In this document: positions 22,081 through 64,000 of the stretch, in pieces
How the letters are laid out: each line of letters opens with the position of its first letter
Numbering within the stretch: the first letter of the stretch is position 1
DNA from: Vulgatibacter incomptus
GTDB lineage: Bacteria; Myxococcota; Myxococcia; Myxococcales; Vulgatibacteraceae
Assembly: GCF_001263175.1 (NCBI RefSeq)
Contig: NZ_CP012332.1
Span: 490,001 to 554,000 of the forward strand
Direction: 5' to 3'
Length of the DNA: 64,000 bases
Notes under the pieces: model-generated
Told to the model about the DNA's origin: nothing
The model's input: only the letters and a program-made list of their open reading frames with translations
Databases searched by the model: none
Position numbers and translations under genes: made by a program

Positions 22081-22375
22081 TTACACGCCGGGCACGATTC
22101 GCTTTCACAAGCGTCGCGACGCTGAGCTCCCCTGTTCGTCGATGAAACGCTGCCCTTCCGTCTCGGCGGATGCTCTCTTCCAGGGCAAGCGACCACCTCC
22201 TTGCCCCCGATTGTGTCACCCATGTCCCTGGACTCCGGTGTCACCCGGTCACCGATCTCGGCAGCACGATCCGTTACCTATCCACGCGATCTGGACCTGG
22301 CCGAATCCCCGCCCGAACCCCCGATGTCAGGGGTCCGCGATAGGATCTGTGCCGATTCATGTTGGGGGACAGACC
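22081..22375. other. Intergenic region with two GTGTCACCC repeats
   Basis: No gene is seen. GTGTCACCC occurs at 22213-22221 and 22238-22246, 25 bp apart. Repeats of this kind with TGTCACCCATGTC context occur at ends of some IS elements (IS21-like). With no second end visible, this is at most a relic. Confidence 0.3.
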
Positions 22376-23032
22376 ATGCGAAAGCGGTGTTCTGACGGGC
22401 AGTTGGAGATGCGGTTGCCGATGTGGGGAGGTCGCCGAACGGGCGCGGGACGGAAGCCCGTCGGCCCCCGACCTGGCGTTACACATTCGGCGCGCGGCGC
22501 GTTGGCGAGCAGGCACCCGGTCCACGTCACCTTGCGGGTGCTGGACGACGTCTGGAACCTTCGCAGCAGGCGATGCTTCCGGGTCATCGAGGCCGCGCTC
22601 TTCCGCGGTTCGAATCGCCTCGGTCTCCGACTCACGCACTACTCCGTGCAAGGAAACCACCTGCACCTCATCGTCGAGGCCCGCGACACCCAGGCGCTGT
22701 CGCGGGGGACGCAGGGCCTGAGCGTACGCATCGCGCGAAGCCTCAACCGGCTGATGGGGCGCAGAGGAAAGGTCTTCGCCGATCGCTTCCACTCGCACGT
22801 GCTGCGCACGCCCCGCGAGGCGCGCAATGCGATCCACTACGTGCTCGGCAACGCGCGGATCCATGCGCGCCGACAGGGCCGCTCGACCTCGGCGCATCCG
22901 GACCCCTACGCGGCGGGACCCATCGACGGGGGCGCGTCGTCGGCGCTCCGCTCCGTCGTCCCTCCGCGGACGTGGCTGCTCCGGGTCGGGTGGCGCGTGA
23001 GGAGCGACGGCGGTCCGGCTGGGCCGGCCTGA
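22376..23032 (+). CDS. Y1/HUH transposase of the REP-associated (RayT) type
   Basis: 218 residues from ATG 22376. The catalytic HUH histidines are in the NHLHLIVEA motif after LRLTHYSVQG. Later come the segments IARSLNRLMGRRGKVFADRFH and EARNAIHYVLGNARIHAR, which include the candidate nucleophile Tyr, as in TnpA_REP enzymes. These single-copy domesticated relatives of IS200/IS605 transposases are associated with dispersed REP palindromes rather than with classical IS ends. No flanking REP hairpins were found here. The N-terminal WGGRRTGAGRKPVGPRPG segment is typical for this family in GC-rich proteobacteria and myxobacteria. It follows the pnp terminator and precedes a restriction-gene relic. 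Confidence 0.82.
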   Translation: MRKRCSDGQLEMRLPMWGGRRTGAGRKPVGPRPGVTHSARGALASRHPVHVTLRVLDDVWNLRSRRCFRVIEAALFRGSNRLGLRLTHYSVQGNHLHLIVEARDTQALSRGTQGLSVRIARSLNRLMGRRGKVFADRFHSHVLRTPREARNAIHYVLGNARIHARRQGRSTSAHPDPYAAGPIDGGASSALRSVVPPRTWLLRVGWRVRSDGGPAGPA

Positions 23033-23116
23033 GTCGACGACGGGCCATCTCTCGCAACAGCGGAAGCTCCCGCCGCAGGGCTGAATCCTCCGGGATTCCC
23101 CCTCGATGAAGCTATA

Positions 23117-23323
23117 ATGCCCGAACCTCGACGCGCCTGGAGGCGAAGGATGGGGCCACTTGGCTCGCCGAGCCCAGAGCAGCTCGCCCGGCGACGGATC
23201 GATGCGATGCTCGAGGCGTCGGGCTGGCCTGTGCAGAGCCGAGCAGAGCTGAGCAGAGCTGAACCTCGGGGCCGGCGAAGGCGTGGCCGTGCGCGAGCTG
23301 CACACGGCCACGCCGACTACTGA
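23117..23323 (+). pseudogene. Relic of the N-terminus of a type I restriction R subunit (HsdR), frameshifted
   Basis: The reading frame begins SPEQLARRRIDAMLEASGW then PVQSRAEL, matching the start of HsdR-type proteins, which run roughly SPEQxARxxIDxLLxAAGWxVQDR. At 23241-23260 the 10-mer GAGCAGAGCT is present twice in tandem. Removing one copy restores the frame to AELNLGAGEGVAVREL, again the HsdR consensus. Similarity ends soon after; no helicase or nuclease domain follows before the lipoprotein gene at 23403. A TATAAT sits at 23113-23118. This is a short decayed remnant; identification is from remembered family consensus. Confidence 0.55.
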
Positions 23324-23402
23324 AACTCGGTTCTCGAGGCCTGTCGAGATGGAGCAGCTGTCGAGCGACAAGAGCGGTTGATCCGGAGGACATGAGCGAG
23401 TC

Positions 23403-25694
23403 ATGAGAGCCAAGATCCTGATCCCGATGCTCGTCCTCGCTTGCGGGGCGTGCTCGTCCCGTGATCACGAGACTCCCCCTCCGATAGACGATCCGAAATG
23501 TACGGAGGCCAATCCGTGCATCGACTCGGTCCGGGTGGAGCCGGAGGAAGCCTCGGTATCGGTGGGCGGCTCTCTGATGCTGTACGCGTTTGACGCTGAC
23601 GATCGGCCGATCCCGGTCGGCCGCGTCGCGTGGACCTCGAGCGACCCGGTGGTGGCGACGGTCGACGCCGAAGGGCGGGTGACGGGCCTGTCCCCCGGCG
23701 TCGCCACGATCGCCGCCAAGGCAGGCAGCGCCACCGCGTCCAGCCGTGTGGCGGTCGAGAGGCCCGTCGTTGCAGCGATCGAGATCCAGGGCGCGTCCGC
23801 CGTCGAGCTGATCGTCGGGCAGAGGCTGCAGCTCGCAGCCATCGTCCGCGACGCGAATGGGGAGCGGCTGACGGACAGAGAGCTAGAGTGGTCTTCCGAC
23901 GCGCTCAACGTGGTGGCGGTCGACGGCTCGGGGTTCGTCCGCGCGGTTTCGCCGGGCTCCGGCAACGTGACTGCCTCGGTCGAAGGCGTGAGCGCATGCG
24001 TCGCGATTCGGGTCTACGCCGCTCCCGTGGTGTCGGTCCGCCTGAAGGCGGCCAAGAGTTCCATCGCCATCGGCGAGGAGCTCGCGATTGCAGTGACAGT
24101 GGAGAACTCGCGGGGTGAAGTGCTCGATCGGGAGGTCCGCTGGAACGCCCTCCCCGAAGATCGTGTCTCGTTCGAAGATGGGGCAGTCGTCCGGGGCGTC
24201 CGGGCGGGTCGGGTCGAAATCCGGGCGGAGGTCGACGGAATCTCCGGATCGCTTGCCCTCGAGGTGGTTGGACACCCGACCTCGATCGCGATCGACGGGG
24301 CGCCACGAATCGATGTCGATCTCGGCGAATCTCGACAGCTTCGCGCCGTCGTCCTGGACGAGAACGGCGACCCGATCGACGGGAAGGAGCCGGTCTGGAC
24401 CGCGAGCGACTACCACTTCGCCATCGTCTACGTTCAGGGCGCTATGGAAGCGCGGAAGCTCGGGACGATCATGGTCACGGCGACCTACGGCGGTGTCCAG
24501 GCACGAGCCCTTCTCCGCGTGGGCATCCCCCGTTTCTCGCGCATCACGGGAGGCGAGGGATCCGTCTGCGGGATCACCGGGGATGGGCGGGTGTTTTGCT
24601 GGGGGCAGCCACATGGGTTGCAAGCGGTGGTCGTCAATGGGCTGTATCGGACGGTCTACGCGCCCGCTCGCGTTCTTCCCGGCTTCGGGCTCGAGAGCTT
24701 GACCGTGGGCACTTTTCGGCAGACCGGAGGAGCATCGAGCACCGACACCCATTATTGCGGGATCCTCCTCGGAGGCGACACCTTCTGCTCCGGCGTGAAC
24801 TATTTCGGCGTCGTCGGGAACGGCACCACGGCTCCCGCCTCCGAGCCCTACGTATTCGGACAAGCGTTCAAGCTCGTGGATACGGGGCTCACCCACGGAT
24901 GTGCGATCGACCAGGACGACCTCGCCTGGTGCTGGGGCAGGAACGACTTCGGACAGCTCGGCACTGGCGACGAGGTGGAACGGTGGGTTCCGACCCCGGT
25001 GGCGGGCGGGCTGAGATTCTCGAGCATCTACGCCGCCCGGGACGGAGGGGCGACCTGCGGAATCACCACTTCTGGCGATGCGTGGTGCTGGGGTCGGAAC
25101 CAGAGCGACGCCCTCGGCAATGACACCGAGCAGGACAGCAGCGTTCCGGTCCCCGTCTCGGGCGCGATCGCCTTCCAGAGCATCTCGATCCTCTCCGGTC
25201 TGCCGGGTGCCGTTGTGGACGGCTTCGACTCCAGCAGCGGACACGCCTGCGGCCTATCGCGGGATGGGCAGGGCTACTGCTGGGGCAAGAACGGCTGGGG
25301 GCAGCTGGGCAACGGCGGCATCGAGCCCTCGAGCGTTCCGGTCGAGGTCGCGGGGGGCCATACCTTCCGCCAGATCGAGATTTCCCACCCCTACCGATCC
25401 GAGTGGGACTCCACCTCGTGCGGCCTGACGACCGATGGCGAGGTTCTCTGCTGGGGAAGCGGCTACAACGGCGAGCTCGGACGTCCTTGCAACTCCCCGG
25501 TCGAATGCGAGGCGACCGAGCCCCGCCCGGTGGAAGGGGATTTCCGCTTCGAACAGCTCGCGATCGGTGGAGGGACGATCTGTGGCCTGTCCAGGGATGG
25601 CGTTGCCTACTGCTGGGGCGCGATCGTGAGCCAGGCCACGACTTGGGAGCCGACGCCCATCTTCGGCCAGGAGCGGTGGGTCGAGGATCCGTAG
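23403..25694 (+). CDS. Lipoprotein with four Ig-like (Big_2) domains and an RCC1-type beta-propeller, copy 1
   Basis: 763 residues. The N-terminus is a lipoprotein signal (MRAKILIPMLVLACGACSS). About residues 35-375 hold four bacterial Ig-like domains, each with the pattern of VGxxLxLxA, WxSSDPxVATVD and GxATIAAKAG. From about residue 385 to the end come RCC1-type propeller repeats with paired Cys and CWG turns (CGITGDGRVFCWG, CAIDQDDLAWCWGRNDFGQLG, CGLSRDGQGYCWGKNGWGQLG). Such proteins are surface-exposed and probably bind protein or carbohydrate ligands; no function is established. The next gene is a tandem paralogue 65 bp downstream. Two distant paralogues lie near 57 and 63 kb on the other strand. 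Confidence 0.9.
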   Translation: MRAKILIPMLVLACGACSSRDHETPPPIDDPKCTEANPCIDSVRVEPEEASVSVGGSLMLYAFDADDRPIPVGRVAWTSSDPVVATVDAEGRVTGLSPGVATIAAKAGSATASSRVAVERPVVAAIEIQGASAVELIVGQRLQLAAIVRDANGERLTDRELEWSSDALNVVAVDGSGFVRAVSPGSGNVTASVEGVSACVAIRVYAAPVVSVRLKAAKSSIAIGEELAIAVTVENSRGEVLDREVRWNALPEDRVSFEDGAVVRGVRAGRVEIRAEVDGISGSLALEVVGHPTSIAIDGAPRIDVDLGESRQLRAVVLDENGDPIDGKEPVWTASDYHFAIVYVQGAMEARKLGTIMVTATYGGVQARALLRVGIPRFSRITGGEGSVCGITGDGRVFCWGQPHGLQAVVVNGLYRTVYAPARVLPGFGLESLTVGTFRQTGGASSTDTHYCGILLGGDTFCSGVNYFGVVGNGTTAPASEPYVFGQAFKLVDTGLTHGCAIDQDDLAWCWGRNDFGQLGTGDEVERWVPTPVAGGLRFSSIYAARDGGATCGITTSGDAWCWGRNQSDALGNDTEQDSSVPVPVSGAIAFQSISILSGLPGAVVDGFDSSSGHACGLSRDGQGYCWGKNGWGQLGNGGIEPSSVPVEVAGGHTFRQIEISHPYRSEWDSTSCGLTTDGEVLCWGSGYNGELGRPCNSPVECEATEPRPVEGDFRFEQLAIGGGTICGLSRDGVAYCWGAIVSQATTWEPTPIFGQERWVEDP

Positions 25695-25759
25695 GCCGCC
25701 GTGCGACGGCAGCCGTTCGAAGGTTGATCAGGAGGGCCAGATCGGGACATCTGCGAGGT

Positions 25760-28057
25760 ATGAGAGCGAAGATCTGGATCCCGATGCTCGTCCTGGCTTG
25801 CGGGGCGTGCTCCTCCCGGCATCACGAGGCTCCCCCTGTGATCGAGGAGCCGAAATGCACCGAAGCCAATCCGTGCGTCGACTCGGTTCGCGTGGAGCCG
25901 GAGGAGGCCTCGGTCCTGGTGGGCGGCACGCTGAAGCTGACCGCATTCGACGCCGACGACCGGCCCATCCCGGCCGGCCGGGTCACGTGGACCTCGAGCG
26001 ACCCGGTGGTGGCGGCGGTCGACGCCGAAGGACGGGTGGCGGGCGTCACGCCCGGCGTCGCCACGATCGCCGCCAAGGCGGGCAGCGCCACGGCATCAAG
26101 CCGCGTGGTGGTCGAGGGGCCTACCGTCGCGGCGGTGGAGATCCAGGGCGCGTCCTCCGTCGAGCTGGTCGTCGGGCAGCGGCTGCAGCTCGCGGCCATC
26201 GTTCGCGACGCGACCGGAATGCGGCTGACGGACCGGGAGGTGGAGTGGTCCTCGGACGCGCCCAACGTCGTCGCGATCGAGGGCTCGGCGGGGTTCGTCC
26301 GCGCGGTCTCGCCAGGCTCGGGCAACGTGACCGCCACGGTCGAGGGCGTTAGCGCTTCCGTCGCCGTACGGGTCGTCGCCGCTCCCGTCGCGTCCGTTCG
26401 CGTGAACGCGGCGAAGAGCTCCATCGACATTGGCGAGGAGCTCGAACTAGACGTAACCGTTACGAACACGCGCGGAGAGGTGCTCGACCGGGAGGTGCGC
26501 TGGAGCGCCGTCCCGGAGGGCCGCGTCTCCTTCGAGGGCGCGGTCGTGCGTGGCGTCCGGGCGGGCCCGGCCCAGCTTCGAGCGGAGGTGGACGGCGTCG
26601 TCGGGACGCTCCCACTCACGGTAATCGGACACGCGGCCTCGATCGCGATCGAAGGTGCGCCGCGGATCGACGTCGATCTCGGCGAATCCCTGCAGCTCCG
26701 CGCGGCCGTCCTGGACGAGAACGGCGACGCGATCGAGGGGAAGGTGCCGCTCTGGATTGCGAACGACCCCGAGATCGCGCGGGTCGACCTCCAGGGCGCG
26801 TTGGTAGCGCGCAAATTGGGTACGCTCACCGTCGCGGCTTCGTACGGCAGTGCCCAGGCGCGAGCGGAGGTCCGCGTGGGAATCCCCCGCTTCGCGCGCC
26901 TCACGGGAGGGGAGGGATCCGTCTGCGGGATCACCTCCGACGGGCGGGCGTTCTGCTGGGGTTCACCGCATGGTTCGCGGTACAACGAATCTGTCCGCGT
27001 CCTTCCCGACTTCAGGCTCGAGAGCTTGACCCTGGGGACGATCAGGCCGGGCGGGGCCAGTTCGCCACTCGACACGCACTATTGCGGGATCCTGGTTGGA
27101 GGAGACGCCTTCTGCTCCGGTGGCAACGACTTCGGAGTCCTCGGCAATGGCAGCACCAGTCCTGCGTTCGAGCCCTACATCTTCGAACAAGCCTTCAACG
27201 TCATGGATTCGGGCCTCACCCACGGATGCGCCATCGACCAGGATCACCTGGCCTGGTGCTGGGGTAGGGGCGACTTCGGGCAGCTTGGCGACGGCAACAC
27301 GGCGGATCGGTCGGCCCCGTGGCCGGTCCAGACCGGGCTGAGATTCTCGAGTATCCACGCCGCCCGGGACGGAGGGGCGACCTGCGCCATCACGAGCTCG
27401 GGCGAGGCGTGGTGCTGGGGCCGGAACCACAGCGGCGCCCTCGGCAATGGAACGGAGCAGGACAGCCACATTCCGGTCCCCGTCTCCGGCGGGATCGCCT
27501 TCGACAGCGTCTCGATCGTCTCCGGGCTGCCGGGATCGGTCGTGCATAATTCCCTCACGTCCGGACATGCGTGTGGCGTGTCGCGTGAAGGGAAGGGCTA
27601 CTGCTGGGGCACGAACTCGTGGGGGCAGCTGGGGAACGGCGGCGTCGAGCCGTCGAGCGTTCCGGTCGAGATTGCCGGTGGCCATTCCTTCCGCCAGATC
27701 GAGATCTCCCACTCGTACCGATCCGAGTGGGACTCCACCTCGTGCGGTCTGACGACCGACGGCGAGGTCCTCTGCTGGGGAACCGGCTACAACGGGGAGC
27801 TCGGACGGCGTTGCACCTCCCCGGTCGAATGCGAGGCGGTGGAGGCCCGCCCGGTCGGAGGGGGCCTCCGCTTCGAAGAGCTCGCGGTCGGAGGCGGGAC
27901 GTTCTGCGGCCTGTCCGGGGACGGCGTCGCCTACTGCTGGGGGAGCTTTCGCCAGGGTGTGACGTGGGAGCCGACGCCCATCTGGGGTCAGCAGCGGTGG
28001 CTGGAGGGTCCGGCACACCTCGCCAACACCAACCAGGATCTGCCTGGCGGCGAGTGA
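25760..28057 (+). CDS. Lipoprotein with four Ig-like (Big_2) domains and an RCC1-type beta-propeller, copy 2
   Basis: 765 residues, a tandem duplicate of the preceding gene: the same MRAKI start, the same lipoprotein signal (MLVLACGACSS), four Ig-like domains and an RCC1 propeller, collinear throughout. Start ATG 25760 is chosen by alignment to copy 1; the frame extends further upstream only through the 3' end of copy 1. Differences are spread along the protein and include a shortened loop near the first propeller blade, where copy 1 has an extra LQAVVVNGLYRTVY segment. The pair may be co-transcribed; the 65-bp gap resembles the leader of copy 1. Confidence 0.9.
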   Translation: MRAKIWIPMLVLACGACSSRHHEAPPVIEEPKCTEANPCVDSVRVEPEEASVLVGGTLKLTAFDADDRPIPAGRVTWTSSDPVVAAVDAEGRVAGVTPGVATIAAKAGSATASSRVVVEGPTVAAVEIQGASSVELVVGQRLQLAAIVRDATGMRLTDREVEWSSDAPNVVAIEGSAGFVRAVSPGSGNVTATVEGVSASVAVRVVAAPVASVRVNAAKSSIDIGEELELDVTVTNTRGEVLDREVRWSAVPEGRVSFEGAVVRGVRAGPAQLRAEVDGVVGTLPLTVIGHAASIAIEGAPRIDVDLGESLQLRAAVLDENGDAIEGKVPLWIANDPEIARVDLQGALVARKLGTLTVAASYGSAQARAEVRVGIPRFARLTGGEGSVCGITSDGRAFCWGSPHGSRYNESVRVLPDFRLESLTLGTIRPGGASSPLDTHYCGILVGGDAFCSGGNDFGVLGNGSTSPAFEPYIFEQAFNVMDSGLTHGCAIDQDHLAWCWGRGDFGQLGDGNTADRSAPWPVQTGLRFSSIHAARDGGATCAITSSGEAWCWGRNHSGALGNGTEQDSHIPVPVSGGIAFDSVSIVSGLPGSVVHNSLTSGHACGVSREGKGYCWGTNSWGQLGNGGVEPSSVPVEIAGGHSFRQIEISHSYRSEWDSTSCGLTTDGEVLCWGTGYNGELGRRCTSPVECEAVEARPVGGGLRFEELAVGGGTFCGLSGDGVAYCWGSFRQGVTWEPTPIWGQQRWLEGPAHLANTNQDLPGGE

Positions 28058-55779: not shown

Positions 55780-56610
55780 TCAGGACGACCGGCGGGCGGC
55801 CCCGAAGAGGACGCCCTGGTCGGGCTCCAGGCCCAGGACCTTGCGGACCGGCGCGAACGAGCGCCGGTGCACGGGCGAGACTCCGAGCTTCTCGAGAGCC
55901 CGCACGTGCTCGGCCACCGGATAGCCCTTGTGCTTCGCGAAGCCGTAGCCGGGGAACGTGCGGTCGAGCACCACCATCCGAGCGTCTCGATCCGTCTTGG
56001 CGAGGATGGAGGCCGCGGCGATCGAGAGGCTCTTCGCATCTCCCTTCACGATCGCCTCCTGCCGCATGGGAAGCTCGGGGATCCGACGCGCGTCGACGAG
56101 CAGGGCCTCGGGTACCGCGCCGAGCGCCCGAACCGCGCGGAACATCGCCAGGAGCCCGGCGCGGTAGATGTTGATCCGGTCGATCTCCTCCGGCTCCACC
56201 GCGCCGATCCCCCAGGCGACGGCGCGCTTCCGAATCTCGTCCGCAAGACGCTCGCGCGTCGAGGCGTCGAGCTTCTTGGAGTCGTCCACGCCCGGGATCC
56301 GGCAGCCTTCGGGCAGGATCACCGCCGCCGCCACCACCGGGCCGGCGAGGGGGCTCATCCCGGCCTCGTCCACGCCGGCGACCCGCTGGAACCCTTCGGA
56401 CCAGAGCGCGCGCTCGTAGCGCAGCATCGTGCGGAGCCGCTGGCCCTCTGCGCGGGCCTCGGTGCGGCGCCTCTCGATCGACTGGAGGATCGATCGCGCC
56501 CCCGCTCGGGGATCGCTCCTGAGCTCCTCCTCCGCCGCTGCGGTCAGGGGGAGGCCTTCGTCCAGGTATCGGCGCTTGAGCTCTGCGAGAGGACGGCGAT
56601 GGCTTGGCAT
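55780..56610 (-). CDS. rnhB: Ribonuclease HII
   Basis: 276 residues from ATG 56610; a GTG at 56628 is an alternative. It cleaves RNA in RNA-DNA hybrids, including single ribonucleotides. A 75-residue N-terminal extension (found in several bacterial RNase HII) precedes the catalytic domain: [16 protein letters not shown] (DE at 81-82), [23 protein letters not shown] and [10 protein letters not shown]. The first 120 codons are duplicated at 61.66-62.02 kb. It follows the RCC1 lipoprotein gene by 82 nt. Confidence 0.95.
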
Positions 56611-58588
56611 GGCGACGATTCGCGCCACGGAGCGGAGCCGGGCGCACGGCGCCGCATTCTACATCACAGGCCGTCCAGGTTCAGCCTCGGCCTTACTCTT
56701 GCCCGGCAATCTGCGTCGGAACCTCCAGTGGATAGCCCTGTGATCTCCTCCCCACTGCGCCGTATCCCCAGCAGTAGACCCTTCCCTCGTAGTCGAGGCC
56801 ACAGCCGCCTTCGGATCCCAAGCCGATATCGACGAACCGGAGCTGTCCTGAAAGCAGGATTGGAGTCGCCTCGTAGCAGAGGAAGATATCGTTCCCACGG
56901 GGGCACGCTTCTTTGCCGAGCTGCGAGAAGGCATTGGAGCCCCAGCACCAAGCCCGACCATCTTCAGCCAACCCGCAGGAGAATCCGAGCGATGAGGGCG
57001 AAACGGCCGTTCTAATGCGGGTGAATACGTGTCCCCCTTCGATCGGCACTGGAACGGAGGAAGTCCCGTTCGAGCCAGTTCCAAGCTGCCCGGTGAGGTT
57101 CGAGCCCCAGCAGTATCCCTCTCCCTCACGGGTCAGCGCGCAGGCGTGTCCCAACGAGCCGACATATCCGCCCGTCGAGGCGGAGATCTCGACGAACGTG
57201 TTTCCACCTTCTACTTCGGCGAGCGCGCTCGAGCTCGGCGGCGGACCTTCCTCCACCGGGTCACGGAGCTCCCTTCCCCAACAGTAGGTCCGCTCGTCCA
57301 GTGCAATGCCGCAAGTCGTTCCACCCACTCGTGTAGGCGAGGTCGAAGGCTGGTGGAAGAGCAAATCGGTCTCGACCGGAGTTGGAATCAGTACGACCTC
57401 GGGAGACTTGATTCCGAGCTGTCCGCGCAGGTTAAATCCCCAACAGAACGCTCTGCTGACGGGGTCCAACGCACAGGTGTAGCCATATCCTGCGGAAACC
57501 GAAATAAACCGAAAGCCGAGCGATACAGCGTCGAGCGGTAGGTCGGTGGTTCCATTTCCCAGCTGGCCCCAATCGTTGTCGCCGGTGCAAATGGTCTCCC
57601 CGGATGTCGTGATTCCGCATGCATGTGAGTCACTGAAGCTCAGCGATTCGAAGCGATAGAGGTCCAGAAACGGCACGGCGGTTTGGGGTTGAGGCTCTTG
57701 ACCTTCTCGAGTGGGTAGAGGGGCCCGCCAATAGTACGCGCGTCCGTCAACCGTGAGACCACCTGCGGTATTTCCTCCGACGAACAGCTTCGCCAATCGA
57801 GGGATTACCACACGAACTTGCGCGTGAGTTTCCAAGGGACCAACCGTGGCCGAGATGGTCGTCGTCCCCGCCTTCTTGCCCACGACGGTCCCGTCGTCCA
57901 AGACGGCGGCGATCTCCGGATCGCTCGAACTGAAAGCAGGCTCGCCTACCTCCATCGGGTCTCCGTTCTCGTCTCGCATGGTCGCTCGAAGCCGATCGTG
58001 ATACCCGAGGTCCACGATCAGGGGATTTGGCGTCAGTTCGAGCGAGGTCGAATGGCCGGAGATTCGAATGCGAACTGAAGCCTCGAGCGCTTCGACGCGA
58101 GCGTACACCGTCACCACTCCTGCTTGGCGTCCCGCTACCGATCCTGTCGGTGAGAGAGTGATGAGCTCCGGTGGTTTGGCCTCCCATGTCACCGAGGGGT
58201 CCACGATCGGAGCGCCCCACGCGTCGTTCACTCGAGCGACGAGCTGGGCCTCTTCTCCGATGAAGAGCTCGCCTGGAGCTCCCTCGATGCGAATGGATGC
58301 CGCGGGAGGCGAGGTCACCTCGATTTGTACCGAGCTACTGACTCCATCCGAGGTGGCCGTTACGTTGGCCCGGCCGATCGCCTTCGCCGTAACGAGTCCG
58401 TCTCTCGAAACCGTAGCAACCTCGGGTGTATCCGAAGTCCACTCGACCTTGCGATCCTCGAGGACGGTTCCGTGTTCGCTCAGAACCGTGGCGTGTAGAC
58501 GTTTGCCTTGATGTACGAGAAGGGCGAGGGAATCTGGCTCGATCTCGATGCGAGCCACCCTCTCGCCGTCGTCAATCGGAAGGACCAC
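56253..58588. repeat. Segmental duplication, copy A (part shown in window)
   Basis: From 56253 this segment (5' part of rnhB and most of the upstream RCC1 lipoprotein gene) matches 61664-64000. The offset is 5,411 at rnhB and 5,412 from the lipoprotein stop to the window end, so almost no indels occur over 1.9 kb. Divergence is by scattered substitutions, heaviest toward the Ig-like part. Copy A continues to at least 58942; the matching part of copy B is beyond the window. Confidence 0.85.
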
Positions 58589-58942
58589 GATCTGGCTCGT
58601 ACCCTCGATGCCATCGGCGCGGACAGAAACGACGACCTCGCCAGGCGAGATCGCTTCGACGAGGCCCTCCGCCGAGACCGTCGCGGTTGCGGTCGAGCTC
58701 GACGACCAATCGAAGCGCTCGACCGCAACCTGCTTGCCTGCATCCGACCAAGCGGTCGCGTGAAGCTCAGCTGTCTCTCCGGGGTGAAGGCGAATGGACT
58801 CAGGCTCAACTCTGATCGATGCGGCGACTTCGGGTTCAACTTCGACCGGAGGGTTGACGGGAGGCGGTGTTCCGCACGCCCAGCAAAGCGCGTGGGTTCC
58901 CATCATCAGCAGTCTGGCGAGCGTGGCGATACGCGGTGCCAT
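56693..58942 (-). CDS. Ig-like/RCC1 beta-propeller surface protein, copy 3
   Basis: 749 residues with ATG 58942 after GGGAGGAG. The N-terminal hydrophobic segment contains THALCWACG; its lipobox is atypical, so lipidation is uncertain. Four Ig-like domains follow (ATATVSAEGLVEAISPGEVVVSVRADG and similar segments, about residues 40-370), then RCC1 blades with CWG turns (CGITTSGETICTGDNDWGQLG, CALDPVSRAFCWGFNLRGQLG). The fold is shared with the two genes at 23-28 kb but the sequence is distinct. A nearly collinear duplicate lies at 62.1-64 kb. Confidence 0.88.
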   Translation of the reverse strand: MAPRIATLARLLMMGTHALCWACGTPPPVNPPVEVEPEVAASIRVEPESIRLHPGETAELHATAWSDAGKQVAVERFDWSSSSTATATVSAEGLVEAISPGEVVVSVRADGIEGTSQIVVLPIDDGERVARIEIEPDSLALLVHQGKRLHATVLSEHGTVLEDRKVEWTSDTPEVATVSRDGLVTAKAIGRANVTATSDGVSSSVQIEVTSPPAASIRIEGAPGELFIGEEAQLVARVNDAWGAPIVDPSVTWEAKPPELITLSPTGSVAGRQAGVVTVYARVEALEASVRIRISGHSTSLELTPNPLIVDLGYHDRLRATMRDENGDPMEVGEPAFSSSDPEIAAVLDDGTVVGKKAGTTTISATVGPLETHAQVRVVIPRLAKLFVGGNTAGGLTVDGRAYYWRAPLPTREGQEPQPQTAVPFLDLYRFESLSFSDSHACGITTSGETICTGDNDWGQLGNGTTDLPLDAVSLGFRFISVSAGYGYTCALDPVSRAFCWGFNLRGQLGIKSPEVVLIPTPVETDLLFHQPSTSPTRVGGTTCGIALDERTYCWGRELRDPVEEGPPPSSSALAEVEGGNTFVEISASTGGYVGSLGHACALTREGEGYCWGSNLTGQLGTGSNGTSSVPVPIEGGHVFTRIRTAVSPSSLGFSCGLAEDGRAWCWGSNAFSQLGKEACPRGNDIFLCYEATPILLSGQLRFVDIGLGSEGGCGLDYEGRVYCWGYGAVGRRSQGYPLEVPTQIAGQE

Positions 58943-59015
58943 CGTTATCTCTCCTCCCGTAGCCCCGTTTGCGGATCACGTGGTCGTGGTTCGAGAAGAA
59001 CCGCGGCCATGGTCG

Positions 59016-60068
59016 TTACCGTAGAGCAACTTTGCAGTGATGGATCCTCGCTTTCGAGGCGGGATGCAAGGGATCGGAATGATCGTCATAGGTCTCGAGA
59101 TAGGCGAAGCTATCCTGGTCGATATCGTACGAATATACCCCGTTGCCTCTGTTCACCTCGTCGACCGAGGCGACGAGATAGGTAAGCCCCGTCACAAGAT
59201 CGGTGAGATAGATGGGGTCGATTCCATCTTCGGCGGGGCACGAGTCCCCGCTATAGAGCACGAATCTGCCGGTCGCGTTGAGCCTCGGCTTGTGGTGTGA
59301 AAGACAGGGGCCCGAGACGAGCTCTTCCGACGTTGGGTCGAGGACCGACCGATAGGCGATAAGCGATTCGCCGATGCTGGTGATCTTCTCGTAAGCGACG
59401 AGGTCGCTGCCTACGTTGGGGGTCTGGAATCTCTCTCCGTCCTCCGGGCTGCCAAAATCGCCGTTCAGCCCGAGTAGAGACCGAAAGCCAATCGTGCCGT
59501 CGAGTTCGTACGCAACCAATCCGCTACGAATGCTCGGATTTGTTCCAACAGAAAAGTCGGTGAGGGTTGAATTGCTGAACCGGTACAGTTTCACTTTGGC
59601 GTTCGCCGACCAGACTGCGTTGCCCGAATGAAAGGAGGGAGCGGAGAGTTCAGTAGTTGGCGAATATTCTGCCAAAACAATCTCGCTTTGATTCGCAACG
59701 CTCATGGAAATGACTTTGTATGGGTAGGCCTGCGAATCGGTCTTCACGGTGTAGATCAGCCTCCATGCGTGAAGAGCGAACCCCAGTGAACCCCCTGGCA
59801 CTCCGACGAAGGTCGGGTCGCGATCATGAGGCCCGACCGACGTTCGCTCGTCGGCGAACCGATTGAACGCGAGATTGTTGATGGGGACGCCGTTGTCGTC
59901 GACGACCTGCGCCACAGCCACTCCGCCCCATTTTCCGCGGGTGGATTCCCATTCGGTACTCAGATCCTGCTCCACACAGCCCGTGACAGGAAGCGGCGGC
60001 GTAGCGTGAGCTCCCGCCGCGACGAAGCAGACAGCCAGCACGACCAGCTTCATGATACAAGTTTTCAT
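59016..60068 (-). CDS. Exported beta-propeller-like protein, unknown function
   Basis: 350 residues from ATG 60068. Signal peptide KLVVLAVCFVAAGAHA. The mature part has repeating short strands with patterns such as SGNAVWSANAKVKLYRF, RSGLVAYELDGTIGFRS and GSDLVAYEKI, resembling TolB-type propeller repeats. Base composition is less GC-rich than neighbours (many A/T-ending codons), suggesting later acquisition. A good promoter is 70 bp upstream. No named family recognised. Confidence 0.8.
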   Translation of the reverse strand: MKTCIMKLVVLAVCFVAAGAHATPPLPVTGCVEQDLSTEWESTRGKWGGVAVAQVVDDNGVPINNLAFNRFADERTSVGPHDRDPTFVGVPGGSLGFALHAWRLIYTVKTDSQAYPYKVISMSVANQSEIVLAEYSPTTELSAPSFHSGNAVWSANAKVKLYRFSNSTLTDFSVGTNPSIRSGLVAYELDGTIGFRSLLGLNGDFGSPEDGERFQTPNVGSDLVAYEKITSIGESLIAYRSVLDPTSEELVSGPCLSHHKPRLNATGRFVLYSGDSCPAEDGIDPIYLTDLVTGLTYLVASVDEVNRGNGVYSYDIDQDSFAYLETYDDHSDPLHPASKARIHHCKVALR

Positions 60069-60143
60069 TGAATCCCCCGTGTGTGAAGGCCGTCGCCAGC
60101 CGCCCCCTACTTCGTTCCGGGCTGGCGTGGGCATTCACATCGA

Positions 60144-60172
60144 ACCCTAGCTGTCGCTCCAGGTCTTGTCAA
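60144..60172 (-). promoter_or_regulatory. Promoter for the exported propeller-like protein gene
   Basis: On the minus strand: TTGACA (60172-60167), 17-nt spacer, TAGGGT (60149-60144). The -35 is a perfect consensus. About 70 nt precede the start codon. Confidence 0.55.
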
Positions 60173-60295
60173 ACTCGTCGATTCTATATGTAGGGAGCGC
60201 TGGAAATGTCCGGGTCAATGGGGGTTGTAGGTGTTCAGCCTTCATCACGGCAGTGCCGGAGAATAGCGAGCGCGCGTGAAAGCACGGCGCAGCCT

Positions 60296-60490
60296 TCAGC
60301 ACGCCTCCAATGAGCGGATGCGCTCCTCACACTGCTCCACGAGCTCCTCGATGGGACGCTGGTCGTGAGCTACTGGATTACGCTGATCGGTCGTTTCTCG
60401 GAGCTCGATCGGGAGAGTCCAGCCGGCGAACGAGCGCCTGGGCCAGGTTGGATCGGGCCAAACCAAACGGACATCTACGAGGGCACTCAA
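60296..60490 (-). CDS. Doubtful small reading frame
   Basis: 64 codons from a TTG start, with a protein-like composition (DPTWPRRSFAGWTLPIELRE; IEELVEQCEERIRSLEAC). No ribosome site is evident, and codon use is mixed. It could be a fragment of a decayed gene. Not recognised. Confidence 0.2.
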   Translation of the reverse strand: MSALVDVRLVWPDPTWPRRSFAGWTLPIELRETTDQRNPVAHDQRPIEELVEQCEERIRSLEAC

Positions 60491-60559
60491 TCGGACTGGT
60501 ACGAATGTCCCTGACCTTCGTCGAGCCGCTGCGGTTCCGGAGCCAGCTTCATGCCATGG

Positions 60560-60898
60560 TCAGGCGACGAGCAGGCCGTCCCACATATGGCTCTCGCGCT
60601 CCAGCACCTGCGGGCCGTCAGCCGGGCGGAGATAGGAGATCATCCTCGCCTTGACCCGGCGCAGATCCTCCCAGCTCGGCTGATCGTAGGTGGACGAGAG
60701 CCCGTGGAAGAAGCTGCGGGCCTTGAGCTGGACCATCCGCTGGACCTCGGCCTTGCTGGCGTTGGGCGCGGTGAACCGCATGCCCTTGCGGACCTGGGCC
60801 TCGCCATGCTGCGCGAACCAGGTGACGAGCGCGTCACGCACTTCGAGAACGGATGGAGCGTTGCACGCGGCGCGGCGCGCAAGCGATTCGACGATCAC
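60560..60898 (-). CDS. Hypothetical protein
   Basis: 112 residues from GTG 60898, preceded by GGGGGGAA. A helical, soluble, cytoplasmic-looking protein with segments such as LEVRDALVTWFAQHGEAQVRKGM and KAEVQRMVQLKARSFFHGLS. No motif was recognised. It lies just upstream of the aconitase fragment on the same strand. Confidence 0.5.
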   Translation of the reverse strand: MIVESLARRAACNAPSVLEVRDALVTWFAQHGEAQVRKGMRFTAPNASKAEVQRMVQLKARSFFHGLSSTYDQPSWEDLRRVKARMISYLRPADGPQVLERESHMWDGLLVA

Positions 60899-60987
60899 GG
60901 TGTTCCCCCCGGAAAAACCTTGGAGGGCTAACTACCACACCGACCCACACGTTCAAGCGAGATCATAGGGAGCGACCCGGACGGGGT

Positions 60988-61663
60988 TCAGCGCTCGACC
61001 TTTTGGCCCGCGCCGGGGCCGAGACGCTCCTTCATCCAGTTGATCAGGCCGCCGTTTCGCAGGATGTCGACCTGTCTCGGCGAGAGGGAGTGGGTCACGA
61101 AGAAGGAGCGGCCGTCCGCACGGGCCTGGAGGTGCTTGCCGCTCTCGAGGCCGTCGAGGTCGATCGAGAGGGTGTCGCCCTTGGAGACCGCCTCGTAGTC
61201 GCCCGGATCGACGAAGGTGAGGGGCGCGATGCCGAAGTTCACCAGGTTCTGCGAGTGGATGCGGGCGAAGCTCTTGGCGATCACCGCGCGGAGGCCGAGG
61301 TAGCGCGGCGCCAGCGCGGCGTGCTCGCGGCTCGAGCCCTGGCCGTAGTTGCTTCCGCCGATCACGACGTGGCCGCCGTCGTCCCGCACCTTCATTGCGC
61401 GAGCCGCGTAGGTGGGATCGACCTGGTCGAAGGCGAACTCGCTGATCTTGGGGATGTTGCTCCGATAGGGGAGGACGGGGGTGCCGGCAGGGAGGATCTC
61501 GTCGGTGGTGAGGTCGTCCCCCACCTTGAGGAGCACCGGCACCGAGAGGTCGCGACAGCCGGGGTTCGCCGACGAGCCGATGTAGGCCTGGTAGATCGGC
61601 CGGCCCGCAACCTCGCTCACCGGGACCACGTCGCCGTGGCTCGAGGGGAGCGCGGTCAGCGCC
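60988..61663 (-). pseudogene. Aconitase fragment (C-terminal domain only)
   Basis: About 225 codons of an aconitate hydratase: the C-terminal swivel domain with ALPSSHGDVVPVSE at the left edge, VIGGSNYGQGSSREHAAL, VIAKSFARIHSQNLVNFGIAPLTF and SPRQVDILRNGGLINW near the end. The [4Fe-4S] domains, including the cluster cysteines, are missing. The sequence stops being aconitase at 61664, where the duplicated rnhB segment begins. The open frame continues across the junction by chance. No own start is apparent. Confidence 0.85.
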
Positions 61664-62021
61664 CGCGCGTCGAGGCGTCGAGCTTCTTGGAGTCGTCCAC
61701 GCCCGGGATCCGGCAGCCCTCGGGCAGGATCACCGCCGCCGCCACCACCGGGCCTGCGAGCGGGCTCATCCCGGCCTCGTCCACGCCGGCGACCCTCTGG
61801 ATCCCCTCGGACCAGAGCGCGCGCTCGTAGCGCAGCATCGTGCGGAGCCGCTGGCCCTCTGCGCGGGCCTCTGCGCGGCGCCTCTCGATCGACTGGAGGA
61901 TCGTCCGCGCCCCCGCCCGCGGATCGCACCTGAGCTCCTCCTCCGCCGCTGCGGTCAGGGGGAGGCCTTCGTCCAGGTAGCGGCGCTTGAGGTCTGCGAG
62001 AGGACGGCGATGGCTTGGCAT
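61656..62021 (-). pseudogene. Truncated rnhB duplicate
   Basis: 121 codons from the ATG equivalent to the intact rnhB start, nearly identical to it ([16 protein letters not shown] is kept). The match ends at [10 protein letters not shown], where the sequence runs into the aconitase fragment and stops a few codons later. It lacks the later catalytic residues, so it is inactive as RNase HII. Confidence 0.9.
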
Positions 62022-64000
62022 GGCTACGATTCGCGCCACGGAGCGGAGCCGGGCGCATGGCGCCGCATTCTACATCACAGGCCGTCCAGGTTTCAGCCTC
62101 GGCCTCATTCTTGCCCGGCAATCTGCGTCGGAACCTCCAGTGGATAGCCCTGTGATCTCCTCCCCACTGCGCCGTATCCCCAGCAGTAGACTCTTCCCTC
62201 GTAGTCGAGGCCACAGCCGCTTTGGGATCCCAAGCCGATATCGACGAATCGGAGCTGTTCTGAAAGCAGGATTGGAGTCGACTCGTAGCAGAGGAAGATA
62301 TCGTTCCCGTGGGGGCATGCTTCTTTGCCGAGCTGCGCGAAGGCATTGGAGCCCCAGCACCAAGCCCGAGCATCTTCAGCCAACCCGCAGGAGAATCCGA
62401 GCGATCCGAGCGAAACGGCCGTTTTGACGCGGGTGAACACGTGTCCGCCTTCGACAGGAATGGGAACGGAGGACGTCTCGCTCGTGCCGTTTCCAAGCTG
62501 CCCGGTAATGTTCGAGCCCCAGCAGTATCCATCGCCCTCGCTGGTCAGCGCACAGGCGTGCCCCAACGAGCCGATCGCTCCGCCAGTCGAGGCGGAGATC
62601 TCGACGAACGTTTCGCCACTCTGGACTTCGGTGAGTGCACTCGAGCTCGGCGGAGGACCTTCGTCCACCGGGTCACCGAGCTCCCTTCCCCAACAGTAGG
62701 TCCGCTCGTCCAGTGCAATGCCGCAGGTCGTTCCTCCCACTCGTGAAGGCGAGGTCGAAATTTGGTGAAAGAGGAGCTCAGTCTGGACGGGCGTAGGCTC
62801 CAAGACGGGGTCGGGAGGCTTGATTCCGAGCTGTCCGCGCAGGTTATTTCCCCAACAGAATGCCCCGCCGACGGGATCCAACGCACAGGTGTAGCCATAT
62901 CCTGCGGAAACCGAAATAAACCGAAAGCCAAGCGATACAGCGTCGAGCGATAGGTCCCTGGTTCCATTGCCCAGCTGGCCCCAATCGTTGTCGCCGGTGC
63001 AAATGGTCTCTCCGGAAGTCGTGATCCCGCATGCATGTGAGTCACTGAAGCTCAGCGACTCGAAGCGATCGGGGGCCAGAAATGGCACGGCGGTTTGGGG
63101 TTGAGGCTCTTGACCGTCTGGAGTGGGTAGAGGGGCCCGCCAGAAGTACGCGCGTCCGTCTGCCGTGAGACCGCCTGCGGTATTTCCTCCGACGAACAGC
63201 TTCGACATTCGCGGGATTACCACATGGACTTGGACGTGTGTTTCCAGCGGACCAACGGTGGCCGAGATGCTCGTCGTCCCCACCTTTCGTCCAAAGACGG
63301 TGCCGTCGTCGAGGACGGCCGCGATCTCCGGATCGCTGGAGTGGAAAGTCGCCTCGCCGACCTCCATCGGAGCTCCGTTCTCGTCCAGCACGGTGGCTCG
63401 AAGCCGGTCTTTATCCCCCAGATCTACGTTCAGGGGATTGGGTTTCAGCTCGAGCGAAGTCGAATGGCCGGAGATTCGAATGCGCACCAAAGCTTCGAGC
63501 GCTTCGACACGCGCGAACACCGTTACAACTCCTGCCTGGCGTCCTGTGACCATTCCCGTCATCGAGAGAGCGATGAGCTCTGGCGGGCTGGCCTCCCACG
63601 TCACGGAAGTGTCGACGATCGGGGCTCCCCATGCGTCGGTTACCCGAGCCACGAGTTGGGCGCCTTCTCCGATGAAGAGCTCGCCTGGAGCGCCCTCGAT
63701 TCGAATGGATGCCGCGGGCGGCGGCGTCACTTCGACCTGAATCGAGCTACTGACTCCGTCCGAGGTGGCCGTGACGTTGGCCCGGCCGATCGCCTTCGCC
63801 GCAACGAGTCCGTCGCTTGAAACGGTTGCGACCTCGGGTGTATCCGAAGTCCATTCGACCTCGCGATCCTCGAGGACGTTTCCGTGTTCGCCTAGAACCG
63901 TGGCCTGCAGGCGTCTGCCTTGATGTACGAGTAGGGCGAGGGAATCTGGCTCGATCGTGATGCGAGCCACCTTCTCGACCTCGTCGATCGGAAGGACCAG
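61664..64000. repeat. Segmental duplication, copy B (runs off window)
   Basis: Copy of 56253-58588. Its left edge at 61664 is sharp: homology to copy A starts within CGCGCGTCGAGGCGTCGAG, and to its left the sequence is aconitase. The right edge lies beyond the window. Confidence 0.85.
62105..64000 (-). CDS. Ig-like/RCC1 beta-propeller surface protein, copy 4 (5' end outside window)
   Basis: The frame is open to the last bases of the window, where it still aligns with copy 3 (LPIDEVEKVARI against LPIDDGERVARI), so the start is off the right edge. At least 631 residues are visible: about three Ig-like domains and the full RCC1 propeller, the same length as copy 3 over this part. Substitutions cluster in Ig-like loops and some blades (for example QSGETFVEISASTGGAIG against EGGNTFVEISASTGGYVG), while the C-terminal blade is nearly identical. 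Confidence 0.88.
   Translation of the reverse strand: MVLPIDEVEKVARITIEPDSLALLVHQGRRLQATVLGEHGNVLEDREVEWTSDTPEVATVSSDGLVAAKAIGRANVTATSDGVSSSIQVEVTPPPAASIRIEGAPGELFIGEGAQLVARVTDAWGAPIVDTSVTWEASPPELIALSMTGMVTGRQAGVVTVFARVEALEALVRIRISGHSTSLELKPNPLNVDLGDKDRLRATVLDENGAPMEVGEATFHSSDPEIAAVLDDGTVFGRKVGTTSISATVGPLETHVQVHVVIPRMSKLFVGGNTAGGLTADGRAYFWRAPLPTPDGQEPQPQTAVPFLAPDRFESLSFSDSHACGITTSGETICTGDNDWGQLGNGTRDLSLDAVSLGFRFISVSAGYGYTCALDPVGGAFCWGNNLRGQLGIKPPDPVLEPTPVQTELLFHQISTSPSRVGGTTCGIALDERTYCWGRELGDPVDEGPPPSSSALTEVQSGETFVEISASTGGAIGSLGHACALTSEGDGYCWGSNITGQLGNGTSETSSVPIPVEGGHVFTRVKTAVSLGSLGFSCGLAEDARAWCWGSNAFAQLGKEACPHGNDIFLCYESTPILLSEQLRFVDIGLGSQSGCGLDYEGRVYCWGYGAVGRRSQGYPLEVPTQIAGQE

Follow-up and report, generated by a model that had tools for sequence, protein, structure and literature searches.

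Ig-RCC1 gene pairs of Vulgatibacter incomptus and their predicted cysteine-paired propeller heads

A binding-protein reading of the g1/g2 gene pair

We analysed a 64,000-bp stretch of the Vulgatibacter incomptus genome (hereafter the window; positions 490001-554000 of its 4,350,553-bp single contig, NZ_CP012332.1) in which two adjacent genes, here called g1 (23403..25694, + strand) and g2 (25760..28057, + strand), join bacterial Ig-like domains to an RCC1-type propeller. Our preferred reading, to which we assign a probability of roughly 0.6, is that their products are exported, probably lipid-anchored binding proteins, each with an Ig stalk and a disulfide-braced propeller head. Four bacterial Ig-like domains in a row would form the stalk, carry the seven-bladed head and set its reach. 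In each blade a probable cross-strand disulfide would pin a C-X9-C hairpin, after which WG usually follows (the crinkly motif); a head braced in this way would be suited to oxidising surroundings, in the periplasm or at the cell exterior. The most likely ligand of the head would be an extracytoplasmic protein or glycan, by comparison with BLIP-II, which binds beta-lactamases, and with CRINKLY4 ectodomains, for which such binding is presumed; through it the head might serve in adhesion or recognition. Tandem duplication appears to have enlarged the set of about 24 such genes in the genome, and gene conversion to have altered parts of it. RCC1-repeat genes abound in Myxococcota and take their name from a nuclear exchange factor; a large subset that looks exported and has paired cysteines shifts the question from "eukaryote-like RCC1" to the ligand of the head, for which there are two working models, a plant receptor ectodomain whose structure is solved and a protein inhibitor from bacteria.

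Architecture of the g1 and g2 proteins

The g1 frame runs from an ATG at 23403 to the stop at 25694 and encodes 763 aa. Its tandem copy g2 begins at an ATG at 25760, 65 bp past the g1 stop, and encodes 765 aa; a longer g2 frame from a GTG at 25403 would overlap g1, and it is the ATG at 25760 that corresponds to the g1 start. The two proteins are 76% identical. Both match the Pfam families Big_2, RCC1 and RCC1_2 (E values from 1.3e-24 to 1.2e-28), and in g1 all three exceed the Pfam cut-offs (Big_2, 89.6 bits against 22.8; RCC1, 99.9 against 21.7; RCC1_2, 93.1 against 22); the whole-domain model WD40_RLD stays below its own cut-off in g1 to g3 (124-131 against 150).

An AlphaFold2 model of g1, built from a 40-row alignment, has a mean pLDDT of 89.1 and folds into four Ig-like sandwiches and a seven-bladed propeller. 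The signal peptide (23403..23453) extends to a probable lipid-modified Cys17 (alternatively Cys14). The Ig-like domains occupy aa 41-119 (23523..23759; the best Big_2 stretch is 41-111, and strands were taken from the model), aa 123-205 (23769..24017), aa 209-289 (24027..24269) and aa 294-374 (24282..24524), the last three as delimited by the model. The propeller, placed by the model, a structural alignment and the Cys columns, spans aa 378-757 (24534..25673), and its Cys pairs are 389/399, 452/462, 500/510, 552/562, 616/626, 673/683 and 727/737. All these features lie on the + strand. An extra Cys pair at aa 696 and 702, in the loop after blade 6, is common to all six close paralogues.

The first-pass annotation of this DNA had joined four Ig-like domains to an RCC1 propeller and had named structure prediction as a check; with that prediction now made, the architecture is borne out by the Pfam matches and the g1 model. 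It had also counted four such genes in the window, and there are four: g1, g2 and, on the opposite strand, g3 and g4, of which g4 extends beyond the window end.

The two cysteines of a blade are kept or lost together

All seven blades of g1 and of g2 hold a Cys pair, with a C1-to-C2 distance of 10, and WG follows directly in six of the seven (blade 2 reads CSG). In g3 and g4 the pair is present in six of seven blades and CWG in five, and blade 1 has G/Y and G/F. The earlier statement that every blade keeps paired Cys is therefore correct for g1 and g2, but fails at blade 1 of g3 and g4.

The only invariant columns of the 40-row alignment are seven Cys and one Pro, and 272 of its 280 blades have both Cys; six have neither (one of them with a gap on one side), one has a single Cys opposite a gap and one is gapped. 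This figure is flattering, because 25 of 65 external open reading frames (ORFs) were hand-picked for the alignment from a list that displayed Cys counts, with unpaired-Cys matches left out. A covariation test on the 65 external ORFs is fairer. These were obtained with phmmer from 71 matches, 6 of which came from the V. incomptus genome itself and were dropped, and the test used a pattern without a Cys requirement; since the own-genome ORFs had been selected by their Cys pattern, the covariation rests on the external 65 only. One scan pattern behind the external loci was looser at the second Cys position, where it accepted Tyr or Phe as well. Both Cys were present 271 times, neither 39 times and a single one 6 times, where independence of the two positions would give 72.9 singles.

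In the g1 model, as judged by hand from the strand ends, the two Cys of each blade are opposed in a hairpin, the sum of their two positions agreeing with the hairpin register to within 1. Because the paired Cys are kept or lost together and lie opposed in the modelled hairpin, we consider it very probable that they form cross-strand disulfides.

Probable export and lipid anchoring, and points against the proposed role

The signal peptides, together with the pairwise-conserved Cys, support the view that the family proteins are exported rather than cytoplasmic. Lipid anchoring of g1 to g4 is likely as judged from aligned signal peptides, where the Ala-Cys at g1 positions 16-17 is invariant across the six close paralogues and p1 and p2, another Ig-RCC1 pair (genome 1360163-1366391), read LGAC at the same place. 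Our lipobox test was the Prosite PS51257 form plus a start rule of our own, and p2 fails it by the start rule alone. The earlier description of these proteins as anchored lipoproteins is not confirmed: their Ala-Cys aligns with LGAC of p1 and p2, yet g1 to g4 fail the strict pattern.

That shortfall is one of several observations that weigh against the binding-protein reading: the strict lipobox pattern is found in 16 of 24 family genes, and g1 to g4, with a Cys at -3, are not among them. An RCC1 protein from another part of the same genome (locus L033, 4875-8006, +) looks exported, and none of its five matched blades holds a Cys pair, so the pair is not needed for export. No hypervariable face was found on the propeller; the Cys-bearing strands a and b are conserved, and variation is spread about evenly over the loops and over strands c and d. 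Between g1 and g2, synonymous and nonsynonymous divergence (dS and dN) are alike in stalk and head (dS 0.52 against 0.47, dN 0.14 against 0.17). In published predictions for Leptospira, an RCC1-family protein appears as a set-aside false-positive lipoprotein, predicted to be cytoplasmic (PMC2387172), and a COG5184 protein is found in a list of predicted outer-membrane proteins (PMC5348505).

An expanded family in the genome and across bacteria

Genome-wide we count at least 144 RCC1_2 repeats in at least about 24 genes, both being lower bounds, as 150 of 220 candidates were scored; one 154-aa fragment is included and split genes are counted once. The expanded family with paralogues elsewhere that the first-pass annotation had proposed is thus real. 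Big_2 exceeds the Pfam cut-off in all 16 Ig-stalk genes, which include p1/p2 and a run of five tandem Ig-RCC1 genes, c1 to c5 (genome 1665007-1676847, - strand; L036 5008-16848). Short-blade members comprise five genes and the 154-aa fragment, with blades of 37-40 residues and up to 13 matched blades; fn3 is above its cut-off in four of the five genes, L043 being the one below it. Locus L031 has RCC1 repeats alone.

Several family members carry features of their own. In c3 to c5 an in-frame 18-bp tandem repeat of about 12 copies, slightly variable in length (L036 11195-11419, 14076-14289 and 16190-16404), encodes a Gly-rich linker that joins the signal peptide to the stalk. Two short-blade genes, L038 (genome 1851127-1854563, -) and L044 (3602466-3605977, +), are split across two reading frames, which may reflect pseudogenes, phase variation or sequencing errors. 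The L033 protein has a Glu-Pro linker and, as its fusion partner, a di-haem oxidoreductase domain (DHOR, 6.9e-91).

Of 117 Myxococcota genomes, 96 have a WD40_RLD match at E <= 1e-20, with at most 15 candidates scored per genome. A scan of named genomes returned 61 external loci with relatives, 20 of them with titles in "Gemmatimonad-", and at 7 of the 61 the match runs from the stalk (before residue 300) into the head. The Ig-RCC1 build is therefore not peculiar to V. incomptus, and related heads are widespread in bacteria. Two genomes of its taxonomic family were compared, one per genus, and the other one has no close g1 match (best 35%).

Duplication and probable gene conversion

In a tree of the heads g1/g2, g3/g4 and p1/p2 form separate pairs, each with support of 100/100, and g1 shares 36-37% identity with g3 and g4. 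The earlier view of two pairs, each arisen by its own duplication, holds on both counts, but g3 and g4 are not adjacent; 3.2 kb lies between them, inside a larger duplication. We read g1/g2 and g3/g4 from these comparisons as separate, young duplications. Nucleotide homology between g1 and g2 extends from 23388-25691 to 25745-28012 at 79.9% identity, and their dS of 0.49 and dN of 0.15 (dN/dS about 0.30, as also in g3/g4) indicate ordinary purifying selection on the g1/g2 pair. Synonymous change is mildly uneven along g1/g2 (92 of 5000 shuffles). Head-specific diversification was considered for this pair and rejected, as stalk and head diverge alike.

The g3 gene (56693..58942, - strand, 749 aa) and g4 (62105..64000 up to the window end, - strand; it continues to genome 554354, with the full coding part at L032 4109-6355) lie in a 5.3-kb tandem duplication. 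Copy 1 (56249..61548, -) holds the 5' part of rnhB, g3, an exported orphan that we call X (59016..60068, -) and the 3' part of the aconitase gene, and copy 2 runs from 61660 past the window end; in genome coordinates, 546249-551548 and 551660-556949 are 89.1% identical over 5,317 columns. At the junction (60988..62040, -) a 5' part of the RNase HII gene lies beside a C-terminal part of aconitase (RNase_HII PF01351, 4.2e-08; Aconitase_C, 3.5e-23), the latter matching a longer aconitase frame at genome 556392 at 95%. These fragments are a scar left by the tandem duplication from which g3/g4 arose. By 100-bp windows the two copies are 95-100% identical at the aconitase end and its flank and 93-98% at the RNase HII end, against 84-93% in X and 75-95% in the g genes, with a dip near 550.6 kb. 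Because the g genes and X have diverged more than the acn and rnhB ends, the middle of the duplication has a deeper history than its ends, either through capture of a divergent allele or through later conversion of the ends.

Other pairs are mosaics of another kind. The c4/c5 stalks are 97% identical (dS 0.11) and the heads 66% (dS 0.40, dN 0.28), and 124 consecutive same-residue degenerate codons are unchanged between the two genes (0 of 5000 shuffles). For c1/c2 the dS values are 0.38 in the stalk and 1.10 in the head. In g3/g4 the direction is opposite (stalk 0.44, head 0.20), the head being the more alike part. The p1/p2 pair leans slightly the first way (dS 0.33 in the stalk, 0.47 in the head; pSyn 0.27 and 0.35, P 0.04), with no significant unevenness in the shuffle test. 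Gene conversion gives a good account of the divergence patterns of c4/c5, c1/c2 and g3/g4. Whole-gene dN/dS is below 1 in all tested pairs and highest, at 0.63, in c4/c5, where one stretch (aa 304-353) reaches about 1. The c4/c5 and c1/c2 pairs do make the idea of a constant stalk and a variable head testable. As a general rule elsewhere that idea is set aside, since only one of eight external loci with at least two matches, L075 (1928/4889), conserves a 5' tract in the same manner, and L077 shows the opposite tendency.

Relation to known propellers

The head of g1 has the same propeller fold as UVR8, RCC1 and HERC2, which are cytosolic or nuclear. Structural alignment is closest to UVR8 (Z 43.8, rmsd 1.9 over 335 residues); RCC1 (Z 36.0), BLIP-II (1jtd, Z 23.7), HERC2 and the CRINKLY4 ectodomain are weaker. 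UVR8 is also the best sequence match of long-blade heads such as that of g1, but unlike the g1 family it has no Cys pair where aligned. BLIP-II is a bacterial RCC1-type propeller and a tight protein binder according to its PDB entry titles. It is a secreted protein, and differs in lacking Cys wherever the paired positions align and in having no Ig stalk in the matched chain. Matches to the stalk portion of the family profile are a teneurin-like protein (2.5e-31), Leptospira LigA (1.7e-15), the SbsC S-layer protein (1.1e-12) and Leptospira LigB, in each case over Ig-type stretches only and with no RCC1-type head matched.

The Cys pattern itself recurs in a plant receptor. The CRINKLY4/ACR4 ectodomain (7a0j, 7a0k) is an extracellular seven-bladed RCC1-type propeller with C(X~10)CWG in its repeats, as in most blades of g1 to g4, and by analogy the bacterial head is probably also a rigid binding head outside the cytoplasm. 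A survey of the green lineage describes seven crinkly repeats in CR4 receptor kinases, with C(X~10)CWG and likely disulfide bridges (PMC4617170); in the main text of that survey neither "bacteri" nor "prokaryot" occurs. Two of the five short-blade genes were compared with the PDB. For L038 the first match is the CR4 ectodomain (7a0k, 5e-39; 7a0j, 1.1e-27), and for L039 it is 7a0k (3.7e-22), nearly tied with BLIP-II (2e-21). When the Cys were masked, in a query also trimmed to the blades, the order became BLIP-II (1.3e-21), UVR8 (1.1e-17) and then CR4 (1.9e-15). Because masking lowers the rank of CR4, much of the likeness comes from the Cys pair, and we rejected it as proof of descent. CR4 moreover has TNFR-Cys and kinase domains, whereas g1 to g4 have no such Pfam match and the bacterial proteins carry an Ig or FN3 stalk; with no kinase or TNFR match, g1 falls outside the CR4 family by domain content. 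It would be possible to see here a large bacterial class of crinkly-type (C-X9-CWG), disulfide-braced receptor heads on interchangeable stalks, with Ig stalks bearing roughly 50-60-residue blades and FN3-type stalks roughly 39-residue blades, that diversifies into a binding repertoire by tandem duplication and by gene conversion that homogenises the stalks, and whose short-blade propeller was ancestral to the CRINKLY4 ectodomain, but we think this improbable.

Related genes have been recorded in other myxobacteria, among them a multi-copy COG5184 RCC1-like family of 15 genes in Haliangium (PMC3035250) and MXAN_0889, an RCC1 repeat protein found in Myxococcus xanthus outer-membrane vesicles (PMC4158809); the passages of these two papers that mention such genes do not discuss Cys pairing or Ig stalks and assign no function. 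Among the literature matches listed, no title or abstract opening deals with bacterial crinkly repeats or with Ig-RCC1 proteins; no search was aimed at crinkly repeats and bacteria together.

Weighing other explanations

The first-pass annotation had suggested kin or prey recognition in a predatory social bacterium. In its fuller form this would mean that heads diversify by selection and stalks are held constant by conversion, which would yield strain-specific surface tags. The conserved stalks and diverged heads of c4/c5 and c1/c2 are what it would predict, as are the greater divergence of the g genes than of the acn and rnhB ends in the g3/g4 duplication (75-95% against 93-100% by window) and the lack of a close g1 match in the one other genome of the taxonomic family. 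However, g1/g2 do not have the pattern and p1/p2 hardly do, the head is the more alike part of g3/g4, whole-gene dN/dS is below 1 in the tested pairs, and among the external loci only L075 conforms while L077 leans the other way. Nor is V. incomptus known to be social: it is cited as forming neither aggregates nor fruiting bodies nor spores when grown in pure culture (PMC11821767) and is counted among exceptions whose predation and other traits differ (PMC12093494), which bears on the "predatory social bacterium" of the annotation. We regard such a recognition repertoire as unlikely.

Protein X raises a different prospect, that the Ig-RCC1 proteins and X, possibly a TolB-like propeller, belong to a periplasmic envelope complex in which the Ig-RCC1 protein is a scaffold and not a surface receptor. 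X occurs in three copies in the genome (window 59016-60068, -; L032 6432-7484, -; L034 3889-5091, +), each directly upstream of an Ig4-RCC1 gene (g3, g4 and p1), and TolB is the nearest structure to its model (E 1.9e-10). That model is weak (pLDDT 60.8), however; X has no Pfam family at E <= 5 and no PDB sequence match at E <= 1, no copy was found beside g1/g2 or p2, and of 195 Myxococcota genomes only V. incomptus has it, the other 194 giving no match. With a match in 1 of 195 genomes, X was rejected as a general partner of Ig-RCC1 proteins, and the scaffold explanation is in our judgement doubtful. Least probable, at long odds, is neutral amplification, by which repeat-rich genes duplicate and convert readily and their copy number has no selected role. 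The tandem copies, the 18-bp linker repeat of varying length in c3 to c5, the two short-blade genes split between frames and the gene fragments at the g3/g4 junction would fit it, but the dN/dS of about 0.30 in g1/g2 and g3/g4 points to purifying selection, and the Cys pairs are intact in nearly all blades. Exported binding proteins with an Ig stalk and a braced head remain the reading that we favour.

Additional observations

Upstream of g1, window 22142-23350 (+) holds stretches that, by their motifs, look like remnants of a Y1/REP transposase, which has no Pfam match, and of a type I restriction subunit. The Ig-RCC1 gene at L040 5221-7974 (+) carries extra Cys-Gly-Gly repeats together with a weak CBM96-like match that falls just short of the Pfam cut-off (25.6 against 26).

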